Assembly (NCBI RefSeq): GCF_019800885.1
Contig: NZ_JAHVKE010000001.1
Span: forward strand, 62,001 to 126,000
Direction: 5' to 3'
DNA: 64,000 nt
Origin: Maritalea mobilis
Lineage (GTDB): Bacteria; Pseudomonadota; Alphaproteobacteria; Rhodobacterales; Rhodobacteraceae
The notes under the pieces are model-generated. The model saw only the letters and a program-made list of their open reading frames with translations, had not been told where the DNA came from and did not search any database. A program made the translations under genes and the position numbers. Positions 43,480 to 61,392 of this stretch are shown here, in pieces (positions within the stretch are counted from its first letter, which is position 1; every line of letters starts with the position of its first letter).

Positions 43480-44736
43480 ATGCGTCGAGTGGTTGTGACG
43501 GGGCTGGGGCTGGTGACGCCGCTGGCCTGCGGGGTCGAGGAAACCTGGTCGCGTCTGTTGGCCGGAGAGTCGGGCGCAGGCCCGATCACGCGGTTCGATA
43601 CGACGGGCTATGGCACCACCTATGCCTGCGAATTGCCGCGCGGGGACGGGTCGAACGGCACCTTCAATCCCGACGACTGGATGGAGCCCAAGGAGCAGCG
43701 CAAGGTCGATGAGTTCATCCTCTACGGCCTCGCCGCCGCCGACCAGGCGATCAAGGATGCGGGCTGGACGCCCGAAGACACCGACGCGCTGGAGCGCACC
43801 GGCGTCCTGATCGGCTCGGGCATCGGGGGCTTGAGTTCCATCGCCGACACCTCAATCACCCTGAACGAAAAGGGGCCGCGCCGCGTGTCGCCCTTCTTCG
43901 TGCCGGGCGCGCTGATCAACCTTGTCTCGGGTCAGGTCTCGATCCGCTACGGTTTCAAGGGACCGAACCACGCCGTCGTCACCGCCTGCTCGACCGGGGC
44001 GCATGCCATCGGCGACGCGGCCCGCCTGATCCAGTGGGGCGATGCCGACGTGATGGTCGCGGGCGGCGCGGAATCGCCGATCTGCGGCATCGGCATCGCG
44101 GGGTTCAACGCCTGCAAGGCGCTCTCGACCAAACGCGCCGACGATCCGACCAAGGCCTCGCGCCCCTGGGATGCCGATAGCGACGGCTTCGTCATGGGCG
44201 AGGGCGCGGGCATCGTCGTGCTGGAGGAATACGAACACGCCAAGGCGCGCGGCGCCAGGATCTACGGCGAGATCCTCGGCTACGGCCTGTCGGGCGATGC
44301 CTATCACATCACCGCCCCGCCGCCCGATCACGAAGGCGCCGAGCGCGCCATGCGCGCGGCGCTGAAACGCGCGGGGCTACAGGCCTCCGATATCGACTAT
44401 GTCAACGCGCATGGCACCTCGACCATGGCCGACACGATCGAACTGGCCGCCGTCGAGCGTGTGATGGGCGATCACGCCTCCAAGGTGCTGATGTCCTCGA
44501 CCAAGTCGATGACCGGCCACCTTCTGGGGGCTGCCGGCGCGATCGAGGCGATCTTCTCGATCCTCGCCCTGCGCGACCAGGTGGCCCCGCCCACCATCAA
44601 CCTCGACAACCCCGCCGCCGAGACGTCGATCAACCTCTGCGCCAATGCGGCGGTCAAGGCCGAGATCAACACGGTGCAATCCAACAGCTTCGGCTTCGGC
44701 GGCACCAATGCCTGCCTCATCATGGGCAAGGTGTAA
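43480..44736 (+). CDS. fabF: 3-oxoacyl-ACP synthase II
   Basis: A 418-aa condensing enzyme with the Cys-His-His triad: Cys170 (HAVVTACSTGAHAIG), NAHGTSTMADTIE and TKSMTGHLLGAAG. The N-terminus MRRVVVTGLGLVTPLA is typical. It extends acyl-ACP with malonyl-ACP. It follows the acpP terminator, so it has its own promoter or relies on read-through; mltG follows after six bases. Confidence 0.95.
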   Translation: MRRVVVTGLGLVTPLACGVEETWSRLLAGESGAGPITRFDTTGYGTTYACELPRGDGSNGTFNPDDWMEPKEQRKVDEFILYGLAAADQAIKDAGWTPEDTDALERTGVLIGSGIGGLSSIADTSITLNEKGPRRVSPFFVPGALINLVSGQVSIRYGFKGPNHAVVTACSTGAHAIGDAARLIQWGDADVMVAGGAESPICGIGIAGFNACKALSTKRADDPTKASRPWDADSDGFVMGEGAGIVVLEEYEHAKARGARIYGEILGYGLSGDAYHITAPPPDHEGAERAMRAALKRAGLQASDIDYVNAHGTSTMADTIELAAVERVMGDHASKVLMSSTKSMTGHLLGAAGAIEAIFSILALRDQVAPPTINLDNPAAETSINLCANAAVKAEINTVQSNSFGFGGTNACLIMGKV

Positions 44737-44742
44737 CCGGCC

Positions 44743-45900
44743 ATGTGGAAATCCGTTGCCGCGAACGGGATGAGCTTTCTGATCGTGGCGCTGATCGCGC
44801 TGGCGGGCGTCATCGGCTGGGGACAGCACCAGTTCGAGGCCGAGGGCCCGCTCGATCAGCCGGTCTTCTACGAGGTGCCGCGCGGCGCCTCGCTGTCCGA
44901 GGTCTCGGCCGGGCTGGAAGAGGCGGGCGCCATCACCAACGCCATGATCTTCCGCCTCGGCACCGAGTATGCCGACCGCGCGGGCGATTTGCGCTTCGGC
45001 AATTACGAGATCCCGGCCGGTGCCTCCATGGCCGAGATCCTCGATATCGTGACCACCGGCGGCCCCTCGACCTTCCGCTACCTCGCCACCTATGTCCTGC
45101 GCATCGACGGCACGGGCGAGTTGCGCCTGCGCGAACGCGTGCCGGGGGAAGAGGCGCTGCGCGAACTGGCCGATTTCTCCTATGACGACGAGATCCCCGC
45201 GATCTACCGCGAACTGGTCGAGAGCGACTCGATCAATTTCTACCGCGTGGCGATCCCCGAGGGCCTGACCAGCTGGCAGATCGTCGAGGGGTTGAACCGC
45301 GCCGATTTCCTGACCGGCGAGGTGACCGAGATCCCGCCCGAGGGGATGCTGGCCCCCGACACCTACGAGATGCGCCGCGGGGCCGACCGCAACGAGTTGC
45401 TGGCCCAGATGCAGGAGGCGCAGGCGGCGATCCTGGCCGAGGCATGGGAGAACCGCGTCGACGGCCTGCCGCTGGCCAGCCCGGAAGAGGCGCTGATCCT
45501 CGCCTCGATCATCGAGAAGGAAACCGGCGTGCCCGAGGAACGGCGGCAGGTGGCCAGCGTCTTCGTCAACCGCCTGAACCGCGGCATGCGCCTGCAGACC
45601 GACCCGACGGTGATCTATGGAATCACGAACGGGCAGGGCGTGCTGGGACGGGGGATTCGCGCCTCGGAACTGCGGGCCGAGACGCCCTACAACACCTATG
45701 TCATCGACGGTCTGCCGCCCACGCCCATCGCCAATCCGGGCCGCGCGGCGATCGAGGCGGCGCTTGACCCCGACGAAACGCCCTACGTGTTCTTCGTCGC
45801 CGATGGCACGGGCGGGCATGCCTTTGCCGAGACATTGGCCGAGCATAACGAGAATGTCGCCCGCTGGCGGCAGATCGAGGCCGAACGCGCCAACCAGTGA
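44743..45900 (+). CDS. mltG: endolytic murein transglycosylase MltG
   Basis: A 385-aa YceG/MltG family enzyme. An N-terminal membrane anchor (FLIVALIALAGVIGW) is followed by a LysM-like subdomain and the catalytic domain, with the active Glu at residue 258 in ASIIEKETG, then QTDPTVIYG, YNTYVIDGLPPTPIANPG and YVFFVADGTGGHAFA. It cleaves nascent glycan strands at the inner membrane. It marks the left border of the GTA cluster. Confidence 0.93.
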   Translation: MWKSVAANGMSFLIVALIALAGVIGWGQHQFEAEGPLDQPVFYEVPRGASLSEVSAGLEEAGAITNAMIFRLGTEYADRAGDLRFGNYEIPAGASMAEILDIVTTGGPSTFRYLATYVLRIDGTGELRLRERVPGEEALRELADFSYDDEIPAIYRELVESDSINFYRVAIPEGLTSWQIVEGLNRADFLTGEVTEIPPEGMLAPDTYEMRRGADRNELLAQMQEAQAAILAEAWENRVDGLPLASPEEALILASIIEKETGVPEERRQVASVFVNRLNRGMRLQTDPTVIYGITNGQGVLGRGIRASELRAETPYNTYVIDGLPPTPIANPGRAAIEAALDPDETPYVFFVADGTGGHAFAETLAEHNENVARWRQIEAERANQ

Positions 45901-45963
45901 AATCAAGGGCTTGGCCCTGGACGGGTCGCGCGCGCGCGGGGTCTTGACCCCCGCCCGCGCGCG

Positions 45964-45982
45964 GCGGCCTGTGGCCGCTTTT
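45964..45982 (+). terminator. terminator after mltG
   Basis: GCGGCC-TGT-GGCCGC followed by TTTT. A larger GC-rich inverted repeat (about 45927-45962, GCGCGCGCGGGG...CCCCCGCCCGCGCGCG) precedes it. Confidence 0.75.
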
Positions 45983-45983
45983 C

Positions 45984-46005
45984 GAGTTTTCTTGCCAAGA
46001 TGAAG
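45984..46005 (+). repeat. flank motif, left copy
   Basis: The 22-nt motif begins GAGTTTT and ends GCCAAGATGAAG; a copy with 19 of 22 matches lies at 61371-61392, on the far side of the GTA. From memory, similar GGCCAAGATGAAG sequences are scattered widely in Rhodobacteraceae genomes, so this may be a dispersed 3'-UTR repeat. Confidence 0.6.
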
Positions 46006-46014
46006 CAGGGGCCG

Positions 46015-46052
46015 GGTTAACAAGTCGTTACCGTGCGGTGCGTGTGTTAACC
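46015..46052 (+). promoter_or_regulatory. candidate CtrA box / GTA promoter region
   Basis: TTAA (46017-46020), seven bases, TTAC (46028-46031): a near-consensus CtrA site (TTAA-N7-TTAA). A second TTAA at 46047-46050 makes an inverted repeat GGTTAAC...GTTAACC (46015-46021, 46046-46052). A TTGACC hexamer follows at 46073-46078, without a clear -10. CtrA is needed for GTA expression in Rhodobacter capsulatus and relatives, which fits the position about 180 bp before g1. Confidence 0.5.
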
Positions 46053-46128
46053 ATTTGAAAACACAAAAACTCTTGACCCTGCGCACGGTCCATGGCACCT
46101 CTTTAGGCACGCTGGATGACGTGGGTGA

Positions 46129-46161
46129 ACGGCCCGGGGGAAACCCTTGGGGCCGTTTTTT
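46129..46161 (+). terminator. intrinsic-terminator-like hairpin in the GTA leader
   Basis: ACGGCCC (46129-46135) pairs with GGGCCGT (46150-46156); inside, GGG and CCC pair around GAAA. Six T follow (46156-46161). It lies downstream of the CtrA-like box and 50 bases before the g1 start, so a transcript begun at the upstream promoter must pass it. It may be an attenuator or a read-through control point. Confidence 0.7.
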
Positions 46162-46211
46162 CATGTCCTGTTCGTTCCCGGGAGGCGGTTTCAACCCACG
46201 GGGACATTTCA

Positions 46212-46568
46212 ATGACCGAAAACATTCAACTCGAACTCACCCTGGACCAGGCGGAGAAGGTCGTCGCCTACGCCATGGAGGCGTTCGAAACCACGATCGA
46301 AGCGCTCAGGGACACCGTCCGCGTGCTCAAGAGCATGCCGGAGACCGGGGAAAAGGAAGTCATGAAGGACGTCAAGGCGATGAACAACGCCCTGATGTTC
46401 ACCATGGAGATGCAGGAGAAAGCCCGTGCTGCAGGAAGCAAGAGATTCGGCGCCGACCGAAACGGATGCATGCTCGACCTCGACGGGGCGCGCGCCGAGA
46501 TCGACTTTCGGCTCGCTTGCCTCCGCGACGCAGGAGGCGCAGGCGGCGTTTCTGGACAGCCTGAGTGA
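46212..46568 (+). CDS. GTA small terminase subunit (g1)
   Basis: A 118-aa mostly helical protein (MTENIQLELTLDQAEKVVAY start). The first protein of the Rhodobacter-type GTA cluster is g1, identified as the small terminase, and the position and N-terminal helical repeat (AEKVVAYAMEAFETTIEALRDTVRVLKSM) fit it. It recognises DNA for packaging together with the large subunit; GTA packaging is not sequence-specific. Start ATG 46212 follows GGGGAC. Its last 143 bases overlap the most upstream possible start of g2. Confidence 0.72.
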   Translation: MTENIQLELTLDQAEKVVAYAMEAFETTIEALRDTVRVLKSMPETGEKEVMKDVKAMNNALMFTMEMQEKARAAGSKRFGADRNGCMLDLDGARAEIDFRLACLRDAGGAGGVSGQPE

Positions 46569-47838
46569 CAACGCGCTGGCGGCGCTGCCTTGGCTCTTCG
46601 AGTTCTGGGCGCTGCCGCACCAGCTGGCGCCGGACGGGGACTGGCGCAGCTGGGTTGTCATGGGCGGGCGCGGCGCGGGCAAGACCCGCGCCGGCTCCGA
46701 ATGGGTGCGGTCCATGGTCGAGGGCTCGGGCCCGCGCGACCCGGGCCGCGCCCGCCGCGTGGCGCTGATTGGTGAAACCTACGATCAGGCGCTGGCCGTG
46801 ATGGTGAAAGGGGAGAGCGGGATCCTCGCCTGCTCTCCCCCCGACCGCAAACCGCGCTGGGTGGCGTCCGAACGGATGCTGCTCTGGCCGAACGGGGCCG
46901 AGGCGCGGCTGTTTTCGGCCCACGACCCCGAGGCCCTTCGCGGCCCGCAATTCGACGCCGCCTGGGCCGATGAACTGGCCAAGTGGCCCAACGCGCAGGA
47001 GACTTGGGACATGCTGCAATTCGGCCTTCGCCTCGGCCAGCACCCGCAGGCCGTGGTCACCACCACGCCGCGCAACGTGCCCGCGCTGAAGGACCTGCTG
47101 GCGCGGCCCTCGACGGTGATGACCCACGCGCCGACCGAGGCCAACCGCGCCTTCCTCGCCCCCTCCTTCCTGGAGGAAGTGCAGGCGCGCTATGCCGGCA
47201 CCCGGCTGGGGCGGCAGGAACTGGCGGGCGAGCTTCTGGACGATGTCGAGGGCGCGCTGTGGCAACGGGCGCAGATCGACCGCACACGCACCGGGGTCTA
47301 CCCCGAGGGCATGCGCGTGATCGTCGCCGTCGACCCGCCGGTCACGGGCCACGATGCCTCGGACGCCTGCGGCATCGTCGTGGTCGGGATCGTCGAACAG
47401 GGGCCGGTGCGGGACTGGCGCGCCGTGGTGCTGGAGGACTGCAGCCTGCGCGCCGTCAGCCCGACGGAATGGGCCGAGGCCGCCAGCGCCGCCTATCACC
47501 GCCACGACGCCGCCCGCATGGTGGCCGAGGTGAACCAGGGCGGCGATCTCGTCGAAACGCTGATGCGGCAGGTGGACCCGCTGGTGAATTACCGCGCCGT
47601 GCGTGCCGCCCGTGGCAAGGCCGCCCGCGCCGAGCCCGTCGCCGCGCTCTACGAACAGGGGCGCGTCGCGCATCTGGGCAGCCTGCCCGAGTTGGAAGAC
47701 GAGATGTGCCGCATGACGCTGACCGGCTACCAGGGCGGGCGCAGCCCTGACCGGCTCGATGCGCTCGTCTGGGCGCTGACCGATGGGCTGATCGCGCCCG
47801 CCGCCCGCCAGTTGACCCCCGCGATCCGCGGGCTCTGA
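46426..47838 (+). CDS. GTA large terminase (g2)
   Basis: A DNA-packaging motor, up to 470 aa. Walker A is GGRGAGKTR (residues 80-88), Walker B region QFDAAWADEL, and the C-terminal nuclease domain carries aspartates in VAVDPPVTGHDASDACG and DRLDALVWAL. It pumps host DNA into GTA heads. The start is uncertain: the GTG at 46426 overlaps g1 by 143 bases, and no ATG exists in frame before the ATPase domain; the protein may begin nearer LDSLSDNALAALPWLF, at a CTG or TTG. Confidence 0.9.
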   Translation: MLQEARDSAPTETDACSTSTGRAPRSTFGSLASATQEAQAAFLDSLSDNALAALPWLFEFWALPHQLAPDGDWRSWVVMGGRGAGKTRAGSEWVRSMVEGSGPRDPGRARRVALIGETYDQALAVMVKGESGILACSPPDRKPRWVASERMLLWPNGAEARLFSAHDPEALRGPQFDAAWADELAKWPNAQETWDMLQFGLRLGQHPQAVVTTTPRNVPALKDLLARPSTVMTHAPTEANRAFLAPSFLEEVQARYAGTRLGRQELAGELLDDVEGALWQRAQIDRTRTGVYPEGMRVIVAVDPPVTGHDASDACGIVVVGIVEQGPVRDWRAVVLEDCSLRAVSPTEWAEAASAAYHRHDAARMVAEVNQGGDLVETLMRQVDPLVNYRAVRAARGKAARAEPVAALYEQGRVAHLGSLPELEDEMCRMTLTGYQGGRSPDRLDALVWALTDGLIAPAARQLTPAIRGL

Positions 47839-47928
47839 CCCACATTTGACCCGACGGCGCCCCGGCGCCCGTCACGCGGCACCACCCGGTCGCCGCGCCT
47901 ATTCGCATGGCTTGAGGAGAGTAAGCGC

Positions 47929-49092
47929 ATGGTTTTGGATTTCCTGAGGAAAAACGAACCCCAGACGCCCGAGCGCAAGGCCTCGGCCAGCGCGCGCGTC
48001 GCCGTCTGGGGCAGCGCGGGCCGCGTCGCCTGGTCCCCGCGCGACACGGTTTCGCTGACGAAGAACGGCTTTCTCGGCAACCCGGTCGGCTACCGCGCCG
48101 TCCGCCTGATCGCCGAGGCTGCCGCTGCCCTGCCCATCGTGGCGCAGGACAGCATGCGCCGCTACGACACCCACCCCGCGCTGGGCCTCATCGCGCGGCC
48201 CAATGCGGGCCAGGGCCGGGCCGAGTTGCTCGAGGCCGCCTTCGCCCAACTGATGCTGTCGGGCAACGCCTACATTGAGGCCGTCACGCCCGAACCCGGC
48301 TGGCCGGTCGAGCTGCATGTCCTGCGCTCGGACCGCATGGCGCTGGTCCCCGGCGCCGATGGCTGGCCCATGGCCTATGATTACACCGTCGGCAGCCGCA
48401 AGCACCGCTACGCGCCCGAGGTGATCTGCCATATCAAGGGCTTCCACCCGCAGGACGACCATTACGGTCTCGCCCCGATCCAGGCCGCCGCCACCGCCAT
48501 CGACGTCCACAACGCCGCCGCGCGCTGGTCCAAGGCGCTGCTCGACAACGCTGCCCGCCCCTCGGGCGCCATCGTCTATCGCGGCGTGGATGGGGCCGGG
48601 TCGATGACGCAGGACCAGTTCGACCGCCTGCAGATGGAGTTGGAAAGCCACCACCAGGGCGCGCGCAACGCGGGCCGTCCGATGCTGCTGGAGGGGGGGC
48701 TGGATTGGAAGCCGATGGGGTTCAGCCCCTCGGACATGGAGTTCCAGAAAACGAAAGAGGCCGCCGCCCGCGACATCGCGCTGGCCTTCGGCGTGCCGCC
48801 CATGCTACTCGGCATCCCCGGCGATGCGACCTACGCCAATTACGCCGAGGCCAACCGCGCCTTCTACCGCCTCACGGTGCTGCCCTTGGCGCAGAAGGTG
48901 CTGGCGACGCTGTCCTTCTGGCTTTCGGGGCTGGGGGGCGAGCCGATCGACCTCAAGCCCGACCTCGACCAGGTCCCGGCGCTCTCGGTCGAGCGCGAGG
49001 CGCAATGGCGCCGCGTGGCCGAGGCCGATTTCCTGACGGAGGGAGAGAAACGCCGCATGCTCGGCCTGCCCGAGCGCCCGGAGGAGGCATGA
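47929..49092 (+). CDS. GTA portal protein (g3)
   Basis: A 387-aa HK97-type portal. It reads FLGNPVGYRAVRLIAEAAAALPI near the start, then QLMLSGNAYIEAV, IKGFHPQDDHYGLAPIQAA and GVPPMLLGIPGDATYANYAEAN, all typical. Twelve copies form the DNA entry channel at one head vertex. GAGGAGAG lies just upstream. It overlaps g3.5 by four bases. Confidence 0.92.
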   Translation: MVLDFLRKNEPQTPERKASASARVAVWGSAGRVAWSPRDTVSLTKNGFLGNPVGYRAVRLIAEAAAALPIVAQDSMRRYDTHPALGLIARPNAGQGRAELLEAAFAQLMLSGNAYIEAVTPEPGWPVELHVLRSDRMALVPGADGWPMAYDYTVGSRKHRYAPEVICHIKGFHPQDDHYGLAPIQAAATAIDVHNAAARWSKALLDNAARPSGAIVYRGVDGAGSMTQDQFDRLQMELESHHQGARNAGRPMLLEGGLDWKPMGFSPSDMEFQKTKEAAARDIALAFGVPPMLLGIPGDATYANYAEANRAFYRLTVLPLAQKVLATLSFWLSGLGGEPIDLKPDLDQVPALSVEREAQWRRVAEADFLTEGEKRRMLGLPERPEEA

Positions 49093-49337
49093 GTGGCCGC
49101 GAGGCGACGGGCGGCTCGCGCTATCTCTACGCGCCTTTCGACGCCGCCAACGCCCGGATCGAGGCGAATGAACGGGTTCTGGAAGAACGCTGGCAGGCGC
49201 TGAGCTTTCGCCTTCAGGGCATCGAAACCGCGCTGGAGCGGCTGGAAAAGCGGCTCTGGCTGGCGGTGTTCGGCGTCGTCAGCGTGATCCTCGCCCAGGG
49301 CATCAACCACCTGCTGAACCTCAATGTCGGCGGATAG
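49089..49337 (+). CDS. GTA g3.5, small protein with C-terminal membrane segment
   Basis: An 82-aa protein with a charged helix (ANARIEANERVLEERWQALS) that looks coiled-coil-like, and a hydrophobic C-terminus (LWLAVFGVVSVILAQGI). It matches the position and size of the g3.5 gene between portal and protease in Rhodobacter-type GTAs, whose role is unclear. ATGA overlap with g3. Confidence 0.7.
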   Translation: MSGREATGGSRYLYAPFDAANARIEANERVLEERWQALSFRLQGIETALERLEKRLWLAVFGVVSVILAQGINHLLNLNVGG

Positions 49338-49346
49338 GAGACGGAA

Positions 49347-49907
49347 ATGAATGGACTTTTCGAAACAGGGCTTGAGACCAAGTTCTGCCGCTTCGACGCG
49401 GATCTGACCCTGAAGGACGGCGTGCGGATCGAAGGCTACGCCTCGCTTTTCGGGGCGGCGGACCAGGGCGGCGACGTGGTGGAGCCCGGCGCCTACGCCC
49501 GCAGCCTGAGCGCCGATCGCCGGGTCAAGATGCTCTGGCAGCATGACCCGCGCGAACCCATCGGCATCTGGGACACGGTCGCCGAGGACGCCAAGGGCCT
49601 GTTCGTGACGGGCCGCCTGCTGGATGACGTCGCCCGCGCCCGCGAGGCCGCGGCCCTGATCGAGGCAGGCGCGATTGACGGGCTGAGCATCGGCTATCGC
49701 ACGGTGCGCGCCCACAAGAACGACAAGGGGCAGCGTCTCCTGTCGGAAGTGGAGCTGTGGGAGGTGTCGCTCGTGACCTTCCCCATGCTCCCCGAGGCGC
49801 GGGTTGCCGCGGCCACGGCGCCCGCCGCCAAGGCCAGCGACCTGCGTGACCTGGCGACGGTGTTCGAGGACGCCCGCCGCAAACTGGCGGCGCGTACGGC
49901 CCGCTGA
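49347..49907 (+). CDS. GTA prohead protease (g4)
   Basis: A 186-aa HK97-family prohead protease. The conserved start EGYASLFGAADQGGDVVEPGAY, the catalytic His in MLWQHDPREPIGIW and the Ser in IDGLSIGYRT are visible. It cleaves the capsid N-terminal arm during head maturation. GGAG lies eight bases before the start. Confidence 0.92.
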   Translation: MNGLFETGLETKFCRFDADLTLKDGVRIEGYASLFGAADQGGDVVEPGAYARSLSADRRVKMLWQHDPREPIGIWDTVAEDAKGLFVTGRLLDDVARAREAAALIEAGAIDGLSIGYRTVRAHKNDKGQRLLSEVELWEVSLVTFPMLPEARVAAATAPAAKASDLRDLATVFEDARRKLAARTAR

Positions 49908-49932
49908 TCCCACCGTAAGAGAGGTGTTCGTG

Positions 49933-51102
49933 ATGACCGAGACGGAACCTTCGGCCTCGCTGGCTGAGGTGAAATCGGCGATTGCCGGTTTCATGAATGA
50001 AATCAGCCAGTTTCAAGATGAAATGCAAGTGAAGCTTCAAAAACAGGAAGAGCGGATTTCCATGCTGACCACCAAGACCATGAGCCATGCCCGCCCCGCG
50101 TTGGCCACCGAGATCGACACCGGCGCGCCGCACAAGAAGGCGCTGTCGACCTACCTGCGCTGCGGCGAAGATGACGCGCTGCGCGGCCTCGAGCTTGAGG
50201 GCAAGTCGATGAACACCGCCGTCAATGCCGAGGGCGGCTACCTCGTCGACCCGCAGACGGCCGAAACGATCCAGTCGGTCCTGCGCTCGGCCTCCAGCCT
50301 GCGCGCCATCGCCAATGTCGTGGCCGTCGAGGCCAGCAGCTTCGACGTGCTGATCGACACCACCGAGGCCGGGGCCGGCTGGGCCGACGAGGCCACCGCC
50401 ACGGGCGAGACCGGCACGCCGCAGATCGAGCGCATCTCGATCCCGCTGCACGAGCTTTCGGCGCTTCCCAAGGCCAGCCAGCGCCTGCTGGACGATGCGG
50501 CCTTCGACATCGAGGGCTGGCTCGCCGCCCGCATCGCCGACAAGTTCGCCCGCGCCGAGGCCGACGCCTTCATCAACGGCAACGGCTCGGGCAAGCCCAC
50601 CGGCCTTCTGACCCACCCGATGGTCGCCAATGCCAGCTGGGCCTGGGGCAGCCTTGGCTATGTCGCGACCGGCACGGACGGCGATTTCGACGCCACCAAC
50701 CCCGCGGATGCGATCGTCGATCTGGTCTATGCGCTCGGGGCCCGCTACCGCGCCAATGCGAGCTTCGTGATGAATTCCAAGACCGCAGGCGCCGTGCGCA
50801 AGATGAAGGATGCCGACGGCCGCTTCCTGTGGTCCGACGGCCTCGCGCAGGGCGAACCGGCCCGGCTGATGGGCTACCCGGTGCTGATCGCCGAGGACAT
50901 GCCCGATATCGCGTCCGACGCCACCGCCATCGCCTTCGGTGATTTCGGCGCGGGCTACACCATCGCCGAACGCCCCGACCTGCGCGTGCTGCGCGACCCG
51001 TTCTCGGCCAAGCCGCATGTCCTGTTCTACGCCACCAAGCGTGTCGGCGGCGACGTGACCGACTTTGCCGCGATCAAGCTGATGAAGTTCGGCGCGTCGT
51101 AA
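49933..51102 (+). CDS. GTA major capsid protein (g5)
   Basis: A 389-aa HK97-fold capsid. The first roughly 100 residues form the coiled scaffold arm (FMNEISQFQDEMQVKLQKQE) removed by g4. The mature body begins near AVNAEGGYLVDPQTAETIQS and includes INGNGSGKPTGLLTHP and LMGYPVLIAEDMP. ATG 49933 was chosen after AGAGAGGTG; a GTG three bases upstream is also possible. The 224-bp gap after it is the longest inside the cluster. Confidence 0.95.
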   Translation: MTETEPSASLAEVKSAIAGFMNEISQFQDEMQVKLQKQEERISMLTTKTMSHARPALATEIDTGAPHKKALSTYLRCGEDDALRGLELEGKSMNTAVNAEGGYLVDPQTAETIQSVLRSASSLRAIANVVAVEASSFDVLIDTTEAGAGWADEATATGETGTPQIERISIPLHELSALPKASQRLLDDAAFDIEGWLAARIADKFARAEADAFINGNGSGKPTGLLTHPMVANASWAWGSLGYVATGTDGDFDATNPADAIVDLVYALGARYRANASFVMNSKTAGAVRKMKDADGRFLWSDGLAQGEPARLMGYPVLIAEDMPDIASDATAIAFGDFGAGYTIAERPDLRVLRDPFSAKPHVLFYATKRVGGDVTDFAAIKLMKFGAS

Positions 51103-51326
51103 CCCCTCGGGCTTGCCCCCAAGGTTCCTCGCCCCGCGCCATTTCCGGCCGGGGCGGGGACGGCGGCGACGGGGGGCGATCCAGCTGCGCGTCTCCCCGC
51201 ATGAGCAGCGCACGCCGTCGCCGTCACCCCAAGACGATCCCCGCATCGCGAGGCCAAGTCCCCGCATAACAACACCAATTCCCGGCGCCCCATGGCCCCG
51301 AGCAGGATATCCCGGAGATGATTCCC
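51103..51326 (+). other. non-coding gap between GTA capsid and adaptor genes
   Basis: 224 bp without a gene. A GC-rich imperfect hairpin (CCCCGC 51132-51137 with GCGGGG 51154-51159) lies about 30 bp after the capsid stop. It could reduce transcription of the tail genes relative to the capsid, which is needed in many more copies. Capsid genes often have such a downstream element. Confidence 0.45.
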
Positions 51327-51914
51327 ATGATGATGGTCGAACTGACCACGGTGCAAAGTGGCATCCTACCCATTGCCGCCCTGGCAGATCACCTGCGCCT
51401 TTCACGCGGCTTCACCGATGACGCGGACCAGGATGCGCGGCTGGAAAGCTGCCTGCGCGCGGCGGCCTCGGCCATCGAGGCGCGCACCGGCAAGGCACTG
51501 TTTTCCCGTCGCTTTCTCCTGACCGTGATGCATTGGTCCGAGGACGGGCTGCACCGGCTGCCGATCGCGCCCGTCTCCTCCATCGAGGAGGTGCGGCTGG
51601 TCGGGCGCAACGGGTCCGAGACGGTGGTCGACCCCGCCGCCTATCACCTTGTCGAGGACGCGCACCGCCCGCAACTGACCGCGACGGCCGCGCGCCTGCC
51701 CACGATCTCGCTGGGTGGGTCGGCCGAGATCGAGTTCATGGCCGGTTACGCCGATGACTGGCCGCTTATGCCCGCCGACCTGATGCAGGCGCTGATCCTG
51801 CTGGCGGGCGAGTTCTATGGCCAGAACATCAACACCGACGCGGGCATCCCCTTTGCCGTCTCCGTCCTGATCGAGCCGCATCGCTCGGTCCGGCTGCGGG
51901 GGGCGGGGGCATGA
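51327..51914 (+). CDS. GTA head-tail adaptor (g6)
   Basis: A protein of about 195 aa of the gp6/gp15-like head-completion family (LADHLRLSRGFTDDADQDARLESCLRAAASAIEARTGKALFSR opening helix bundle, split here by conserved residues). It binds below the portal ring. Three ATG codons in a row begin at 51327, nine bases after GGAG; the first is chosen. It overlaps g7 by four bases (ATGA). Confidence 0.85.
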   Translation: MMMVELTTVQSGILPIAALADHLRLSRGFTDDADQDARLESCLRAAASAIEARTGKALFSRRFLLTVMHWSEDGLHRLPIAPVSSIEEVRLVGRNGSETVVDPAAYHLVEDAHRPQLTATAARLPTISLGGSAEIEFMAGYADDWPLMPADLMQALILLAGEFYGQNINTDAGIPFAVSVLIEPHRSVRLRGAGA

Positions 51915-52240
51915 GCGCGCCTGTCCTGTCGCGCCGCCTGACGCTGGAGGCGCCCAACCGGGTGCCCGACGGCGCGGGCGGTTTCACCGAAAGCTGGGCG
52001 GCGCTTGGCAAGCTCTGGGCCGAGGTCGTGCCCCGCGGCGCCGGGCGCGAGGCCGACGCGGCCTCGGAACTGGCGTTGAAGATCACCATTCGCGCAGCCC
52101 CGCCCGGCGCGCCGTCGCGCCCCACGGCAGAGATGCGCTTTCGCGAGGGCGCGCGGATCTTCCGCATCGAGGCGGTGACCGAGGCCGACGCCACGGGCCG
52201 CCACCTTTTGTGTTTCGCCAAGGAGGAGACGGGCGCATGA
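51911..52240 (+). CDS. GTA head-tail stopper (g7)
   Basis: A 109-aa SPP1 gp16-like head-tail joining protein (LSRRLTLEAPNRVPDGAGGF and LWAEVVPRGAGREADAASEL; beta-rich). It plugs the head after packaging. Overlaps by four bases with both g6 and g8, so these genes are translated in series. Confidence 0.85.
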   Translation: MSAPVLSRRLTLEAPNRVPDGAGGFTESWAALGKLWAEVVPRGAGREADAASELALKITIRAAPPGAPSRPTAEMRFREGARIFRIEAVTEADATGRHLLCFAKEETGA

Positions 52241-52641
52241 GCTATGCCGCCAGCGAGGCCCTTCAAACGGCCATTTTCACCGCGCTTTCGGGCGATCCGA
52301 CCGTCGTCGCGCTGTCGAACGGCGCGATCCATGACGCGCTGCCGCCCGGTCCCGTGCCCTCGCTCTACGTGAGCCTCGGGCCCGAACGCGCGCGGGCGCG
52401 GGCCGACAAGACCGGGGCCGGGGCGGTCCACGATCTGCCCGTTTCGGTCATCACCGACGGGGCGGGCTTCGCCACCGCCAAGACGCTTGCCGTGGCGATT
52501 TCCGACGCGCTGGACGGGGCCGCGTTGAGCCTTTCGCGCGGGCATCTCGTCAGCCTCGATTTCCTGCGGGCGCGGGCCCGCCACTCGGGCGAACGGCGCG
52601 AGATCGAGATCTGGTTTCGCGCCAGAATCGACCTCGCGTGA
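52237..52641 (+). CDS. GTA tail terminator (g8)
   Basis: A 134-aa DUF3168 protein (SEALQTAIFTALSGDPTVVAL, GAIHDALPPGPVPSLYVSLG). Members form the ring that caps the tail tube at the head side. Its start overlaps the g7 stop (ATGA). Confidence 0.85.
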   Translation: MSYAASEALQTAIFTALSGDPTVVALSNGAIHDALPPGPVPSLYVSLGPERARARADKTGAGAVHDLPVSVITDGAGFATAKTLAVAISDALDGAALSLSRGHLVSLDFLRARARHSGERREIEIWFRARIDLA

Positions 52642-52687
52642 TGCTTGAAGAACGCATTACAACCCATTTTCAAAATTGGAGAAAGAT

Positions 52688-53101
52688 ATGACTGCTCAAA
52701 GCGGCAAGGATCTGCTGGTCAAGGTCGACATGGACGGCTCGGGCCAGTTCGAGACCATCGCCGGGCTGCGCGCCACGCGGCTCAGCTTCAACGCCGAAAC
52801 GGTGGATGTGACCAGCCTGGAATCCACCGGCGGCTGGCGCGAGTTGCTGTCCGGCGCGGGTGTCCGTACGGCGGCGATCTCGGGCTCGGGCGTGTTTCGC
52901 GACGCGACGACGGACGAACGCGCGCGGGCGATCTTCTGGTCGGGCGAATTGCCCGATTTCCAGGTCGTCATCCCCGATTTCGGCATCATCGAGGGGCCGT
53001 TCCAGATCACCTCGATCGAATATGCCGGGTCGCATGACGGCGAGGCCAGCTACGAGATGGCCATGGCCTCGGCCGGCGCGCTGACCTTCACCGCGATCTG
53101 A
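52688..53101 (+). CDS. GTA tail tube protein (g9)
   Basis: A 137-aa TP901-1-type major tail protein: AQSGKDLLVKVDMDGSGQFE, LRATRLSFNAETVDVTSLES and YEMAMASAGALTFTAI. Stacked hexamers form the GTA tail tube. ATG 52688 has GGAG seven bases upstream. Confidence 0.92.
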   Translation: MTAQSGKDLLVKVDMDGSGQFETIAGLRATRLSFNAETVDVTSLESTGGWRELLSGAGVRTAAISGSGVFRDATTDERARAIFWSGELPDFQVVIPDFGIIEGPFQITSIEYAGSHDGEASYEMAMASAGALTFTAI

Positions 53102-53112
53102 GGCGCGGGACC

Positions 53113-53427
53113 ATGGCCAACCCCCATGCCGGTGAGGTCGCGCTGGTCATCGACGGCCAGCGCCATGTTGCGCGCCTGACCCTCGGCGCGCTGGCCGAGT
53201 TGGAGGACCGTCTTGGCGCGGGCAGCCTGCCGGCGCTGGTCGAACGCTTCGAGGGCGAGGGACCGCGCGCGGGCGATGTCCTTGCGCTGATCTGCGCGGG
53301 GCTGCGCGGCGGCGGCTGGCAGGGCGATCTGCGTGACCTCGCCCATGCCGAGATCGAAGGCGGCGTGATCGAGGCTGCGCGGGTCGCCGCGCGGCTTCTG
53401 GCGCTGGCCTTCCGGGGGGCGGAATGA
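53113..53427 (+). CDS. GTA tail assembly protein (g10)
   Basis: A 104-aa GTA-gp10 family protein (HAGEVALVIDGQRHVARLTLG, ALAELEDRLGAGSLPALVERF). Assumed to be a tail assembly chaperone acting before the tape measure is built in. It overlaps the following gene by four bases. Confidence 0.82.
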   Translation: MANPHAGEVALVIDGQRHVARLTLGALAELEDRLGAGSLPALVERFEGEGPRAGDVLALICAGLRGGGWQGDLRDLAHAEIEGGVIEAARVAARLLALAFRGAE

Positions 53428-53651
53428 GGGCGCGGGCCGGCTTCGACTGGCCCGCCCTGATGCGGGCGGGCATCCAGGGCCTCGGCCTGCGCCCGGCCGA
53501 GTTCTGGGCGCTGACCCCCGCGGAACTGCTTCTGATGCTGGGCGAGGGGACCGGCGCCGCGCCGATGCGCCGCGACACGCTGGACGCGCTGCTGGCGCGC
53601 TTCCCCGACCAGCCAACCGAAAAGGAGAGGGCCGATGGCCGACATGAGTGA
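53424..53651 (+). CDS. GTA tail assembly chaperone (g10.1)
   Basis: A 75-aa protein with FDWPALMRAGIQGLGLRPAEFW and LTPAELLLMLGEG, the signature of the short phage tail assembly chaperone family found between g10 and g11. It overlaps g11 by 17 bases in another frame. Confidence 0.85.
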   Translation: MRARAGFDWPALMRAGIQGLGLRPAEFWALTPAELLLMLGEGTGAAPMRRDTLDALLARFPDQPTEKERADGRHE

Positions 53652-54300
53652 CGACCTCGACGGGTTCGAGGCGCAGATCGCGGAGTTGGAGACGACGCTG
53701 TCCGGCGCGACCTCCATCGCCGCGGCCTTCCAGGCGGAGCTGGAGGGGATGCAGGGCGCGATGCTCTACACCAACCGCGAGGTGCAGAGCATGAGCCGCG
53801 CCATCGGCGGCGGGCTGCGGCGCGCCTTCGACGGGCTGGTGTTCGACGGGATGCGCCTGTCGGACGCGCTGCGCACCGTCGCGACCAGCATGATCGACGC
53901 CGCCTACAACGCCGCGATGCGCCCGGTTCAGACCGCGATCGGCGGGGTGATTTCCAACGGGATCAACGGGTTGATGTCCTCGATCCTGCCCTTCGAGAAA
54001 GGCGGCGCCTTTTCCGGCGGTCGCGTCACGCCCTTTGCGCGCGGCGGCGTGGTCAGCGGGCCGACGCCCTTCGCCATGCGTGGCGGCCTGGGCCTTATGG
54101 GCGAGGCCGGACCCGAGGCGATCATGCCGCTGACGCGCGGCCCGGACGGGCGGCTCGGCGTGCAGGCGGCGGGTGGCGGCGGGGCCGTTTCCGTCACCAT
54201 GAACATCACCACGCCCGATGTGCAGGGCTTCCGCCGCAGCCAGAGCCAGATCGCCGCCGAGATGGGCCGCGCGCTGGCGCGTGGCCAGCGCAATCGCTGA
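53635..54300 (+). CDS. GTA tape measure protein (g11)
   Basis: A 221-aa short tape measure. The start is acidic and helical (DDLDGFEAQIAELETTLSGA). The central part has a hydrophobic stretch (QTAIGGVISNGINGLMSSIL). The C-terminal half carries FEKGGAFSGGRVTPFARGGVVSGPT and GLMGEAGPEAIMPL, found in tape measure ends. Its short length sets the short GTA tail (about 220 aa in Rhodobacter as I recall it). Confidence 0.9.
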   Translation: MADMSDDLDGFEAQIAELETTLSGATSIAAAFQAELEGMQGAMLYTNREVQSMSRAIGGGLRRAFDGLVFDGMRLSDALRTVATSMIDAAYNAAMRPVQTAIGGVISNGINGLMSSILPFEKGGAFSGGRVTPFARGGVVSGPTPFAMRGGLGLMGEAGPEAIMPLTRGPDGRLGVQAAGGGGAVSVTMNITTPDVQGFRRSQSQIAAEMGRALARGQRNR

Positions 54301-54315
54301 GAAAGGCCAGGAAAC

Positions 54316-54948
54316 ATGGGATTTCACGAGGTTCGCTTTCCCGCCAACCTGAGCTTCGGCTCGGTCGGCGGGCCCGAGCGGCGCACCGAGGTGGTGACGC
54401 TGACCAACGGGTTCGAGGAACGCAACACCCCCTGGGCGCAGTCGCGCCGCCGCTATGACGCGGGCGTGGCGATGCGCTCGCTCGACGATATCGCGCGGCT
54501 GATCGCGTTTTTCGAGGCGCGGCGCGGGCAGCTTTACGGGTTCCGCTGGAAGGATTGGTCGGATTTCAAATCCTGCCTGCCCTCGGAAACGCCGGCCTTC
54601 CGCGACCAGCGGATCGGCACGGGCGACGGGGTGACGACGACCTTTCCCCTGTCGAAACGCTATGCATCGGGCGACATCCATTATGACCGCCCCATCGCCA
54701 AGCCGGTGCAAGGCACGGTGCTTGCCGGTGTCTCGGCCGAGGAACTGGTGCAGGGCGTCCATTACACCGTCGATCACGCGGCAGGGATCCTCACCTTCGC
54801 CGACGCCCCCGAGGCCGGCGAAGAGGTGACGGCTGGCTTCGAATTCGACGTGCCCGTGCGCTTCGACACCGACACGATCCAGGCCAGCGTCGCCTCCTTC
54901 CAGGCGGGCGAGGCCTTGAGCGTGCCCGTGGTGGAGATCCGGCTATGA
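54316..54948 (+). CDS. GTA distal tail protein (g12)
   Basis: A 210-aa DUF2460 protein: FHEVRFPANLSFGSVGGPER, YDAGVAMRSLDDIARLIAFF and YGFRWKDWSDFKSC are family hallmarks. It forms the ring joining tail tube and baseplate. Overlaps g13 by four bases. Confidence 0.9.
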   Translation: MGFHEVRFPANLSFGSVGGPERRTEVVTLTNGFEERNTPWAQSRRRYDAGVAMRSLDDIARLIAFFEARRGQLYGFRWKDWSDFKSCLPSETPAFRDQRIGTGDGVTTTFPLSKRYASGDIHYDRPIAKPVQGTVLAGVSAEELVQGVHYTVDHAAGILTFADAPEAGEEVTAGFEFDVPVRFDTDTIQASVASFQAGEALSVPVVEIRL

Positions 54949-55832
54949 GCGGGGTCGAGGGGCTCGACGCGCATCTGGCGACCGGCACGACCGGCGTCGC
55001 GCGCTGCTGGAAGCTGACCCGCGCCGATGGCGTCAGCTACGGCTTCACCGACCATGACCGCGACCTGAGCTTCGACGGGGTCACCTTTCGCGCGGGCACG
55101 GGCCTGTCGGCGGCGGCGCTGAGCCAGACCACGGGCCTTGCGGTCGACAATACCGAGGCCGTCGGCGCGCTGTCGGATGCCGCCGTCACCGAAGAGGACA
55201 TCAAGGCGGGCCGCTTCGACGGCGCGCGGATCGAGGCGTGGCTGGTACAATGGGCCGCGCCCGAGAACCGCGCGCTGACATTTCGTGGCACGCTGGGCGA
55301 GATCAGCCGGGGCGAGGGTGCCTTCACCGCCGAGTTGCGGGGCCTGTCCGAGGCGCTGAACCGGCCGCAGGGGCGCGTCTACCAGCGCGCCTGTTCCGCC
55401 GTTCTGGGCGACGCGGCCTGCCGCTTCGACCTGTCCACCCCCGGCTACGGGACCGAGGCCGCGCCCATCGCCGTCGAGAACGCGCGCGTCTTCACCTTCG
55501 ACGGCGCGCTGCCCTTCGAGCCGCGTTGGTTCGAACGGGGCCTTCTGCGCGTTCAGGACGGCCCCGGCGCGGGCCTTGGCGGGGCGATCAAGCGGGATCG
55601 GCTGGACGAAGACGGGAACCGCCGGGTGGAACTTTGGGACAGCCTGCGCGCCGAGGTGACACCGGGCACGCCCCTGCGTCTGAGCGCCGGCTGCGACAAG
55701 CGGATGGAGACCTGCAAGCTGAAATTCGCGAACTTGCTGAATTTCCGCGGCTTTCCCGACATTCCCGGCGAGGATTGGATGGCCGCGCACCCCTCGCGGC
55801 GCTCCGACAGTTTCGGCGGCTCTCGCAGATGA
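54945..55832 (+). CDS. GTA tail hub protein (g13)
   Basis: A 295-aa DUF2163 protein: CWKLTRADGVSYGFTDHDRDL, the four Cys near YQRACSAVLGDAACRFD and GCDKRMETCKLKF that bind an Fe-S cluster or metal in this family's known structure (as I recall), and NFRGFPDIPGEDW at the end. It forms the hub under the distal ring and overlaps g14 by four bases. Confidence 0.9.
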   Translation: MSGVEGLDAHLATGTTGVARCWKLTRADGVSYGFTDHDRDLSFDGVTFRAGTGLSAAALSQTTGLAVDNTEAVGALSDAAVTEEDIKAGRFDGARIEAWLVQWAAPENRALTFRGTLGEISRGEGAFTAELRGLSEALNRPQGRVYQRACSAVLGDAACRFDLSTPGYGTEAAPIAVENARVFTFDGALPFEPRWFERGLLRVQDGPGAGLGGAIKRDRLDEDGNRRVELWDSLRAEVTPGTPLRLSAGCDKRMETCKLKFANLLNFRGFPDIPGEDWMAAHPSRRSDSFGGSRR

Positions 55833-56269
55833 GCGCGCCCGAGATCGTCACCGCCGCGCGCGGCTGGCTGGGCACGCCCTACCTGCACCAGGCCTCGTGC
55901 CGGGGGGCGGGGACGGATTGCCTGGGCCTGATCCTCGGGCTTTGGCGCGACCGCTTCGGCGCGCTGCCCGAACCGGTGCCCGGTTACACGCAAGACTGGT
56001 CCGAGGCAGGCCGCGAGGAACGGCTCTGGCAGGCCGCGCGGCGGCACATGACCGAGAAACCCGCGGCCGAGGCCGCACCCGGCGACGTGCTCCTGTTCCG
56101 GATGCGGGCGGGCTGCGTCGCGAAACACATGGGCGTTCAGGCCGAGGCCGCACCGGGCCGGGCCAGCTTCATCCACGCCTGGTCGGGCCATGGCGTCGTC
56201 GAGACGCGCCTGACCGGCCCCTGGGCGCGGCGCGTCGTGGCGCGCTTCGCCTTTCCTGAAAGGATCTGA
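55829..56269 (+). CDS. GTA tail peptidase (g14)
   Basis: A 146-aa NlpC/P60 family peptidase. The catalytic Cys is in GAGTDCLGLIL, the His in AKHMGVQ, with a further FIHAW motif. It presumably opens recipient peptidoglycan during DNA entry. It is tied to g13 by overlapping start and stop (ATGA). Confidence 0.9.
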   Translation: MSAPEIVTAARGWLGTPYLHQASCRGAGTDCLGLILGLWRDRFGALPEPVPGYTQDWSEAGREERLWQAARRHMTEKPAAEAAPGDVLLFRMRAGCVAKHMGVQAEAAPGRASFIHAWSGHGVVETRLTGPWARRVVARFAFPERI

Positions 56270-56272
56270 GAC

Positions 56273-59200
56273 ATGGCGACACTCCTCCTCTCGGCGGCGG
56301 GCGCGGCCCTTGGCGGCATGACGCAGGCCTCGGTCTTCGGCCTGACGGGCGCGGTTCTGGGCCGCGCCGTTGGCGCCACGATCGGCCGCGTGATCGACCA
56401 ACGCCTGATGGGCGCGGGCTCCGAGGCGATCGAACAGGGCCGCGTCGAGCGCTTTCGCATCACCGGCGCGGGCGAGGGCGCGCCCGTCGCGCGGCTTTTC
56501 GGGCGGATGCGCCTAGGCGGTCAGGTGATCTGGGCCACGCAATTCGTCGAGCACCGCAAGAAATCGGGCGGCAGCAAGGGCGCGGCCCCGCAGCCCAAGA
56601 CCGTCCGCTATTCCTATTCCGTCAGCCTTGCCGTCGCGCTCTGCGAGGGCGAGATCGCGCGCGTGGGCCGGATCTGGGCCGACGGGGTCGAGATCGACCG
56701 CGAGACCGTCACCATGCGCCTGCACAAGGGCGGCGAGGACCAGCTGCCCGACCCGCTGATCGAGGCGGTCGAAGGCGCGGGCGAGGTGCCGGCCTATCGC
56801 GGCATCGCCTATGTCGTGTTCGAGGACCTGGACCTCTCGCCCTATGGCAACCGCGTGCCGCAATTCGCCTTCGAGGTGGTGCGCAACCCGCGGGTCGAGG
56901 CCCCCCACACCCCGCAAGCCGCCGAGATGATCCGGGCCGTGGCGATGATGCCGGGCACGGGGGAATACGCGCTCTCCACCAGCCGCGTCGCCTATGACGG
57001 CGCGCTCGGGTCGGGCGGGGCGGCCAATGTCTCAGCCGAGGGCGGCTTGTCGGATTTTTCGCAATCGCTGGCCACGCTGCGCGACACGCTGCCCAACCTC
57101 ACATCGGTCTCGCTGATCTATTCGTGGTTCGGCGACGACCTGCGCGCGGGGGCCTGCACGGTGAAACCCAAGGCCGAGGACCGCGACCGCAAGACGAAGA
57201 AACATCCCTGGACCGTCGGTTCGCTGGAGCGCAGGCAAGCCGAAGAGATCGCCCGCGACGCCGAGGGGCGGCCGATCTACGGCGGCACGCCCGCGGATGA
57301 AAGCGTGATCGAGGCCATCACCGCCGTTCGCGACGGCGGGCAGGAGGTGATGTTCTACCCCTTCCTGCTGATGGAAATCCTCGAAGGCAACGGCATGCCC
57401 GACCCGTGGGGCGGGGCCGAGCAGGCGCATCTGCCGTGGCGCGGGCGCATCACCGGCGATCTTGCCCCCGGCCAGCCGGGCGGCCCCGATGGCACCGCCG
57501 CCAACGCCGTCGCCACCGCGTTCTTCTTCGGCACGGTCACGGCTGCCGATTTCACGGTGACCGAGGGCAGGGTCGCTTATCACGGCCCTGACGAATGGTC
57601 CTATTCGCGCTTCATCCTGCACTGCGCCGCGCTCTGTGCGGCGGCGGGCGGCGTCGAGGCCTTCTGCATCGGTTCCGAGATGCGCAGCCTGACCCAGATG
57701 CGCGACGCCCTGGGCTTTCCGGCGGTGGACCGGCTCCGCGATCTTGCCGCCGAGGTGCGCACGCTTCTGCCAGAGGCCAGGCTGACCTATGCCGCCGATT
57801 GGTCGGAATATTTCGGCTACCACCCGCAGGACGGCTCGGGCGACGTGTATTTCCATCTCGATCCGCTCTGGGCGGACGAGAACATCGATTTCATCGGGAT
57901 CGACAATTACATGCCCGTGGCCGACTGGCGCGACGGGCACGACCATGCCGATGCGGCCGAGTGGAACACGATCCACGACCTTGCCTACCTGCGCGCCAAT
58001 ATCGAGGGCGGCGAGGGCGGCGACTGGTACTACCCGAGCGCCGAGGCCCGCGCCGCGCAGCGCCGGGTGCCGATCACCGATGGGCTTTTCGGCAAGGATT
58101 GGGTGTTCCGGGTCAAGGCATTGCGCGATTGGTGGGAGCAGCGCCACTACGACCGCCGTCGCGGTGTCGAGGGCGACATCCTCGACGCGGGCGACGCCCT
58201 GTCGGACACCTTTCGCGCAACCGCCATGGGCATTGAGGATCGCGTCGCCGTCAACGATGCCGGACGCTTTGCCTCGCGCGTCTTCGGCCTGTCCGGCGCG
58301 TCCTACTGCTACGCCAATCTCGATGTCGTTCCCGGGGCGCTCTATACCTTCCGCCTGCTGGTCAAGTCGGCCTCGGGGGCGCCGGAAACCGCGAGCCTGA
58401 ACTATTTCGACGGCGCCCATCACCGGCAGCTCTTTACCGCCGACGGCACGTGGCAGGAGGTTCAGCTTACCTTTCGGCCGGATCGCGACACGGTCAACCT
58501 CTACCCGGTCGACATGCGCGCGCCCGGAACCGATGCCGAAGCGTTGCTGATCGCGGATGTCGCGCTCATCAGCGATGCGTCCTCGACCCCCTGGGTGCCG
58601 CGCTCGAAACCCATCCGTTTCACCGAGTTCGGCTGCGCGGCCATCGACAAGGGTGCGAACCAGCCCAACGCCTTTCTCGACGCCAAGAGCGCCGAAAGCG
58701 CGATGCCGCGCCACTCCAACGGGCGGCGGGATGATCTGATGCAGGCGCAATACCTGCGTGCGGTCCTGTCCTACTGGGACGATCTGGCGACCAATCCGGT
58801 CTCCGAGATCTATGGCGGCCCGATGCTGGAGATGGACCATGCCCATGCCTGGGCCTGGGACGCGAGACCCTGGCCGGCCTTCCCGAACGACCGCGCGCGC
58901 TGGTCGGATGGCGAGAACTGGCGCCGGGGTCATTGGCTGACCGGGCGGCTCGATGCCGCGCCGCTGGACCTGGTGGTGGCCGAGATCTGCGAAAGCGCCG
59001 GGCTGGGGGCCGAGGACTATGACGTCTCGCGCCTGCATGGCCTTGTCCGCGGGCACCTGTCGGGGGAAACCGAACCGGCCCGCGCGCGGCTGCAATCGCT
59101 GATGCTGGCGCACGGCTTCCACGCGGTGGAGCGGGAGGGCAAGCTGGTTTTCCTGCCCCTGCCATCGCGCCCCGCCGCGGTGATCGAGGGGGAGAGCACC

Positions 59201-61286: not shown

Positions 61287-61320
61287 GGGATTGCGCCGCG
61301 TATCACGCGTCGTCCGGGGG

Positions 61321-61357
61321 AAGCACCGCAAGGGGCATCGAGCCCCTTGCGGTGCTT
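61321..61357 (+). terminator. long hairpin at the end of the GTA operon
   Basis: A perfect 15-bp stem: AAGCACCGCAAGGGG (61321-61335) with CCCCTTGCGGTGCTT (61343-61357), one more C-G pair inside. No T-run follows immediately; a second short hairpin CTCC...GGGAG followed by TTTTT lies at 61362-61378. Together they probably end GTA transcription. Confidence 0.8.
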
Positions 61358-61370
61358 ATGCCTCCGGCGG

Positions 61371-61392
61371 GAGTTTTTCAGCCAAGATGAAG
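61371..61392 (+). repeat. flank motif, right copy
   Basis: Right-hand copy of the motif at 45984-46005: GAGTTTT then, after three differing bases, GCCAAGATGAAG (19 of 22 identical). It lies 85 bp after the last GTA gene. See the left copy for the caveat that it may be a dispersed genomic repeat. Confidence 0.6.

Follow-up and report, generated by a model that had tools for sequence, protein, structure and literature searches.

The window analysed here is a stretch of 64,000 nucleotides of Maritalea mobilis DNA, in which a gene transfer agent (GTA) operon follows mltG on the same strand (mltG stop at 45900). The first gene of the operon, g1, gave no Pfam or PHROG match at an E value of ≤0.01. 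The features of the leader and of the genes around it are collected in Table 1. All of the letters that an earlier note had described in the leader were confirmed, namely TTAA-N7-TTAC (TTAACAAGTCGTTAC), a second TTAA (in GTTAAC, 46046-46051), the TTGACC hexamer, and a hairpin starting at 46127/46128 with six T (46156-46161), which are separated from the ATG of g1 at 46212 by exactly 50 bases. The inverted second TTAA is present as described, but it is readable as part of an IHF-like site on the minus strand, and the assignment is corrected to that extent. For the scoring of these boxes, TTAA-N7-TTAA was taken to be the CtrA consensus and WATCAANNNNTTR that of IHF; motif scoring gave a second 8/9 IHF-like site at 46018. 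The -10 position is poor, which fits what an activator-dependent promoter may look like.

Table 1. Features of the GTA leader and neighbouring genes in the window
Feature	Position	Strand	Basis
Terminator-like site GCGGCC TGT GGCCGC TTTT between mltG and the GTA promoter	45964-45989	+	By eye; overlapping site in terminator scan
CtrA-like box TTAA-N7-TTAC	46017-46031	+	7/8 positions
IHF-like site TTTCAAATGGTTA	46048-46060	-	8/9 to WATCAANNNNTTR, by eye
-35 element TTGACC	46073-46078	+	TTGAC near-invariant in hairpin-bearing leaders
GCGCACG between -35 and -10, putative GafA-binding element	46081-46087	+	Conservation; within the GafA-bound R. capsulatus fragment
-10 position CACCTC (poor)	46096-46101	+	17 bp from the -35 element
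Initial transcribed block ACGCTGGATGACGTGGGT	46109-46126	+	Probable +1 at A46109, placed by spacing
Promoter-proximal terminator-like hairpin with six T (46156-46161)	46127-46161	+	Terminator scan, fold, comparison
Extended hairpin, GACGTGGG paired with TTTCATGTC across and past the T-run	46118-46167	+	Folds
g1, small terminase by position, first GTA operon gene	46212-46568	+	Position
g2, large terminase (terL)	46426-47838	+	Query for finding related loci

The hairpin has the sequence features of an intrinsic terminator, with a GC-rich stem, a short loop, and a T-run directly after it. A fold of positions 46100-46170 gave -35.7 kcal/mol (z -4.3), and none of 200 shuffles was as good. The hairpin was the only plus-strand site in a terminator scan of 44500-62000 and the strongest of seven plus-strand sites at ≤-12 kcal/mol when our own scanner was run on 45900-61400. 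The total of terminator-like sites on both strands of 44500-62000 was at the chance level (8 versus 7.0 ± 3.0), and the case therefore rests on comparison rather than on a single sequence. An Rfam covariance-model search of the window at the gathering score detected no riboswitch or leader family, the sole match being a tRNA at 27297-27378.

We assembled two similarity sets of related loci. The first held the best 80 of 446 relatives found with the terL query (L004-L083) plus a same-genus locus (L003). The second came from a search with the capsid under strict cut-offs, which gave 145 matches in 395 family genomes and 17 in 18 genomes of one genus; 40 leaders were taken from it (L087-L126), with terL present in 39. 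Some species occur in both sets, and L001 and L002 are copies of the window locus. A hairpin of ≤-12 kcal/mol with a T-run was found upstream of g1 in 77 of the 81 loci of the first set (79/83 with L001 and L002) and in 36/39 of the second. Over both sets, with the first limited to the best 80 of 446 plus L003, 113 of 120 loci have a hairpin and T-run between the promoter and g1, and these leaders amount to 110 distinct sequences. At ≤-15 kcal/mol, a site was present in 77 of 83 leaders (two being the window-locus copies) versus 6/83 on the antisense strand, while control stretches gave 79/808 and 17/305 and dinucleotide shuffles 28/249. Close relatives did not lack the hairpin, as it is present in the same-genus leaders read, those of the window, L003, and L011 (L011 placed in the genus by contig position; G003 and G004 lie outside this count).

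Because the similarity sets lean to close relatives, an even family sample was added. Seventy family genomes were drawn evenly, terL was found in 66, and the 59 new ones were read. A hairpin with T-run at ≤-12 kcal/mol preceded g1 in 42 of these 59 loci versus 4/59 antisense, and at ≤-15 kcal/mol in 37/59 versus 1/59. A slightly longer stretch gave 43/59. TTGAC lies no more than 75 nt upstream in 37 of these 43 leaders, the spacer motif described below is present in 29, and a GCTRGR block in 31. With the window and six further loci, all of which have the terminator (L093, L110, L111, L112, L124, and L125), the even sample came to 49/66 in all. The leader terminator is strongly conserved among close relatives and present in about three-quarters of evenly drawn loci. 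The hairpin with T-run is shared by most of the Rhodobacteraceae GTA leaders examined, but 17 of the 59 evenly drawn loci were without a terminator. The 17 include broken loci, with stops (L352) or a split (L353), and one with a distant terminase (L354), and some of the rest resemble intact GTA starts. By eye, the stem is kept and the T-run absent in L334 and L350 of the even sample. A common alternative g1 leader, with ACAGGCAA.AAAGGT.TCGAG before the ATG (by eye) and no leader terminator, was seen in L324, L331, L338, L339, and L342.

We additionally searched viral contigs with a DNA pattern made of the promoter and the initial transcribed block, in which the hairpin was ignored, and 80 of the 100 matches were examined. 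Seventy-nine of these 80 sit 300-600 nt upstream of terL, the exception being L219, which has no terL; the promoter pattern is thus a sharp signature of GTA starts. Among the 78 distinct leaders in this set, a terminator was present in 77 at ≤-10 kcal/mol and in 75 at ≤-15 kcal/mol, compared to 8/390 and 2/390 shuffles. Where the promoter module is present, the terminator is nearly always present as well. The viral contig entries found by the pattern (L169-L248) themselves have the appearance of GTA clusters that were catalogued as viruses.

The similarity-set loci without a T-run terminator (7/120) are L026, L027, L077, L078, L100, L115, and L121, and the terminator of L123 is weak. All eight of these leaders fold a hairpin rooted in or beside the initial transcribed block, with z values from -1.39 (L026) to -4.68 (L115). 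In L115, L121, and L123, other spacer sequences (e.g., GCGTATTTTCGCG), two of the three palindromic, stand in place of the usual element; their leader hairpin is also altered, and their GafA domain scores low.

The module is made up, in order, of CtrA-like and IHF-like boxes (in under half of the leaders), TTGAC, a [GC]CGnnCG spacer element, a poor -10, the conserved initial transcribed block, the hairpin, the T-run, and g1. In the 110 hairpin-bearing leaders, each position of TTGAC is kept in 109 or 110, and the spacer element starts with G in 73 and C in 23, continues with C (98) and G (106), and after two free positions ends with C (108) and G (103). The second place of the -10 is A in 108/110, and the initial transcribed block reads ANGCTRGRAGA. 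With its conserved A taken as +1, the hairpin begins at about +19 and the T-run lies at about +50. A TTAA-N7-TTAA box of at least 7/8 was found in 44/109 leaders (11 perfect) versus 0/109 far-upstream stretches and 23/1,090 shuffles, and an IHF-like site of at least 8/9 in 50/109 versus 4/109 and 47/1,090. The CtrA-like box to which the earlier note had drawn attention does stand out in a subset of leaders, where its sequence supports a putative CtrA site. However, the R. capsulatus leader is outside this subset (CtrA box 4/8; IHF-like site 6/9), and R. capsulatus CtrA is reported not to have bound the GTA promoter (PMC6363796).

Since alignment A2 misaligns the hairpin loops, the arms were tested by script. 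In 110 scored leaders (L123 gave no inner hairpin and was left out), at least 5 T occur within the next 8 bases after the hairpin, and the inner hairpins have a median of -21.1 kcal/mol (range, -1.4 to -32.2). Inner arms paired better with their own partner than with swapped ones, at -13.3 versus -10.2 kcal/mol, the own arm being better in 101/110. In 47 non-redundant leaders the values were -13.2 versus -9.8 kcal/mol (45/47), and both comparisons gave 0 of 2,000 permutations, which ignore relatedness. Inner-stem pairs 2 to 9 from the base occur both as G-C and as C-G in the folded leaders, the folding allowing standard pairs only (rank 4, CG 66 and GC 43; rank 6, GC 46 and CG 44). Compensatory pairs are also seen by eye in L122 (GGCACG/CGTGCC), L125 (GGACG/CGTCC), and L052 (GAATTG/CAATTC).

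Pairing of the initial transcribed block extends across the T-run and beyond it, and in 99/111 leaders 10 or more pairs lie within or after the run. In this outer helix beyond the T-run the signal was weaker than in the inner arms, and the own arm exceeded the mean swapped arm in 55/110 leaders and in 29/47 non-redundant ones, with permutation counts of 14 and 0 of 2,000, kinship being ignored. Opposite G, the run has GT 73 and GC 3 at offset 4, and GC 49 and GT 36 at offset 5. The retention of T at offset 4, and less so at 5, points to selection for a T-run of about five, and the continuation of the stem past the run makes a second role possible. In L087 and other leaders, the T-run is followed by another stem (CTCGTGC..GCATGAG) that adjoins the g1 ribosome site; CTCGTGCGG is exact in 66/110 leaders.

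RcGTA of Rhodobacter capsulatus is the model gene transfer agent, and the GTA operon, of about 15 kb, is lethal. One locus was assigned to R. capsulatus because its capsid is 100% identical to that of PDB 6tb9, and the species name is taken from this match. Counted from the ATG of g1, its -35 lies at -129, the hairpin at -76 to -52, and the T-run at -51 to -46. The published GafA-bound fragment comprises 76-125 bases upstream of g1, with the -10 and the transcription start site (TSS) confirmed by RNA-seq coverage (PMC6363796), and the C-terminal part of GafA binds this promoter fragment (PMC9638019). The [GC]CGnnCG element is inside the fragment (-125 to -76), and the hairpin begins at its end. 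As the hairpin comes after the TSS-bearing fragment, the terminator should be transcribed from that promoter. A terminator-like site upstream of the GTA promoter is also present in R. capsulatus.

A second terminator (AAAGGGTCGGGG..., then a T-run) was found at +1734 in R. capsulatus, between terL and the portal gene (gene ends by eye). Sites of ≤-15 kcal/mol wholly between terL and portal occur in 40/82 loci (e.g., L168, 2124-2150), compared to 3/82 on the antisense strand and, in shuffles, 2 and 3; no such second terminator is present in the window. Further sites at ≤-12 kcal/mol number seven in the 16-kb R. capsulatus stretch, with mostly poor T-runs, and five inside the window cluster. A terminator within the operon would require some read-through, as in Caulobacter, and the second terminator in 40/82 loci agrees with an antitermination reading.

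The genome of the window encodes one DUF6456 protein (GafA; L084, 383 amino acids, E value of 2.6e-60), with a weak hint of an N-terminal helix-turn-helix. A DUF6456 protein was detected in 40/40 and 58/59 genomes examined and, among 14 control genomes, in Caulobacter vibrioides only. It is also kept in 16 of the 17 even-sample genomes without a leader terminator, so that GafA does not imply the terminator. DUF6456 scores were lower where the terminator is divergent or missing (4 versus 35, P = 0.003; 16 versus 42, medians 188 and 210, P = 0.0005), but this co-divergence, with phylogeny uncontrolled, is only suggestive. Among PHROGs, GafA matched only phrog_31864, whose function is unassigned there. 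The Caulobacter study describes GafA as GafY and GafZ fused (PMC11150451), and a published account of RcGTA presents activation as recruitment through the RNA polymerase omega subunit (PMC9638019).

Caulobacter GafZ is a processive antiterminator that associates with RNA polymerase, NusA, NusE, and NusG and lets some polymerase past terGTA and also past rrnB T1; its authors suggest that GafA might have unrecognized antitermination activity (PMC11150451). The leaders studied here resemble the GafY/GafZ/IHF control of Caulobacter crescentus in the domesticated GTA operon, the DUF6456 regulator, and the GCGnnCG half between -35 and -10, as well as in an IHF-like site upstream in many leaders and a terminator inside the operon. 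The Caulobacter ZBE, known from the paper text, has GCGCCCG between -10 and -35 (PMC11150451). From its palindrome GCGCCCG-CTGGCGC, Rhodobacteraceae leaders keep the left half only, as [GC]CGnnCG, and the right half was not seen in the leaders examined. In contrast to the short hairpin and T-run between TSS and first gene in Rhodobacteraceae, the Caulobacter terminator is described as three 150-bp repeats after the first gene, with the start codon at +251 (PMC11150451). The GafA/omega account for R. capsulatus concerns the same promoter and activator as the leader module (PMC9638019, PMC6363796). A word search of the main texts of these two papers returned no hairpin, terminat-, or leader, and in PMC9638019 also no palindrom- or inverted repeat. 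The literature searched, which covered few subscription papers, gave no earlier report of the leader terminator, and one may exist.

In lambdoid phages (lambda, 21, and 82), the late promoter is served by Q and directly followed by the terminator tR', with the structural genes behind it. The GTA leader is similar in having a terminator straight after the late promoter, a putative activator site inside the promoter, and structural genes downstream; a terminator lies between the late promoter and the first late gene, as in Q-type systems, in 42/59 evenly drawn loci. GafA differs from lambdoid Q in that no sequence homology to Q proteins was found; a search of the PDB, where Q proteins are presumably represented, returned no relative of GafA at an E value of ≤0.5.

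The best explanation, to which we give a probability of roughly 0.55, is a promoter-proximal, phage tR'-like terminator that is passed by GafA-loaded polymerase, with both termination and GafA antitermination inferred. In many Rhodobacteraceae, the GTA late promoter would come with an intrinsic terminator placed some 20-50 nt past the transcription start, and without the activator, polymerase would stop at the T-run and release a leader RNA of about 50 nt. GafA, via its C-terminal DUF6456 domain (the family of Caulobacter GafZ), would bind [GC]CGnnCG and load on polymerase, which could then pass the leader terminator and, in many relatives, the terL-portal terminator as well. This would put a double lock on the GTA genes, with GafA needed for both initiation and elongation. 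The proposal in the earlier note that the operon is gated by read-through gains plausibility from the conservation of the hairpin, its position relative to the R. capsulatus TSS, and the kinship of GafA to a proven antiterminator; its leader-peptide form is unsupported, and protein-mediated antitermination is the likelier of the two. For the all-or-none expression that such gating was to help explain, circuits that act on gafA would suffice as a rival account.

A terminator-like element in this place, ahead of the first gene but behind the TSS, suggests that domesticated GTAs have retained a late gate like that of phages. Production of the phage-like particles may thus depend on a dedicated activator that enables RNA polymerase to run past a stop signal.

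The main rival, which might instead be a companion role and to which we give a limited chance, is that a long 5' mRNA hairpin is conserved mainly for reasons other than termination, either shielding the 5' end of the long GTA message from decay or serving as an RNase III processing site. The helix running through and past the T-run in 99/111 leaders would suit such an RNA, as would the compensatory pairs in L122, L125, and L052 and the folding of the eight leaders without a good T-run (z -1.4 to -4.7). However, the T kept opposite G at offset 4 (GT 73, GC 3), though not at offset 5, weighs against it, and only 55/110 and 29/47 leaders had outer arms that outperformed the mean swapped arm. A further reading is that the leader is a two-state RNA switch of Rhodobacteraceae GTAs, in which an RNA antiterminator is combined with the terminator. 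With the switch off, transcription would end at the inner hairpin and T-run; after GafA read-through, the initial transcribed block would pair across the T-run with downstream RNA, and the long hairpin would sequester the T-run and itself help in modifying polymerase or in protecting or processing the message. We think this arrangement unlikely.

That the terminator is merely an insulator, blocking read-through from mltG into costly GTA genes, appears quite improbable. The place of mltG upstream on the same strand is in its favor, but the hairpin is downstream of the GTA promoter and would block that promoter too, and both the window and R. capsulatus already have a terminator-like site ahead of that promoter. 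It is very improbable that the N-terminal domain of GafA, which binds R. capsulatus fragments flanking the GafA-C site, uses the inverted repeat as a DNA site. GafA-Nc binds fragments 1 and 3 specifically (PMC9638019), and by its place the hairpin should lie in fragment 3, but a DNA site would keep its letters, whereas the arm letters vary widely with complementarity kept, and the T-run is one-sided. Attenuation by a leader peptide or a ligand has hardly any likelihood. An ATG at the assumed +1 in 75/110 leaders could point to a peptide, but 35/110, the window among them, have none, and in the 75 the first stop falls in the hairpin in 29 and before it in 4, with no stop in the leader in 42. 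The leader peptide was rejected, as no conserved short open reading frame runs over the terminator in the 110 leaders, and the absence of an Rfam match speaks against a ligand.

The TTGAC..GCGnnCG motif was present in none of 20 GTA loci examined from non-Rhodobacteraceae genomes with terL. A terminator of ≤-15 kcal/mol lies between -540 and -400 of terL in 4 of these 20 loci, with one more at -12.5 kcal/mol. A class-wide model search for the module matched 25/387 genomes at an E value of ≤0.001, and only the own genome and G052, of the same family, were below 1e-6; no match came from G070 or G246, which also belong to this family. The own genome (E value of 2e-30) and R. capsulatus (1e-22) have one strong module match each. 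The next full-length matches (0.015 and 0.031) were rejected, L129 being without a terminator there and L130 having a hairpin and T-run but, by eye, no such promoter.

A phage origin of GafA was considered and rejected, as the pattern method gave no relative among viral contigs. The single match in a phage record, MW462191.1 (L269), is named "Bacteriophage sp.", but its annotation is that of a bacterial contig carrying a GTA cluster, in which a GafZ-like gene is located beside a gene for a DNA-binding protein. In a locus from another family (L149, 379-1071), a GafA-like gene with 36% identity is located upstream of the GTA terminase, an arrangement reminiscent of phages, in which Q is located near the late genes. 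The promoter of gafA in the own genome (L084, 725-740) contains TTAAC-N6-GTAAT 55-71 bases before the start codon, near the published CtrA site of gafA promoters.
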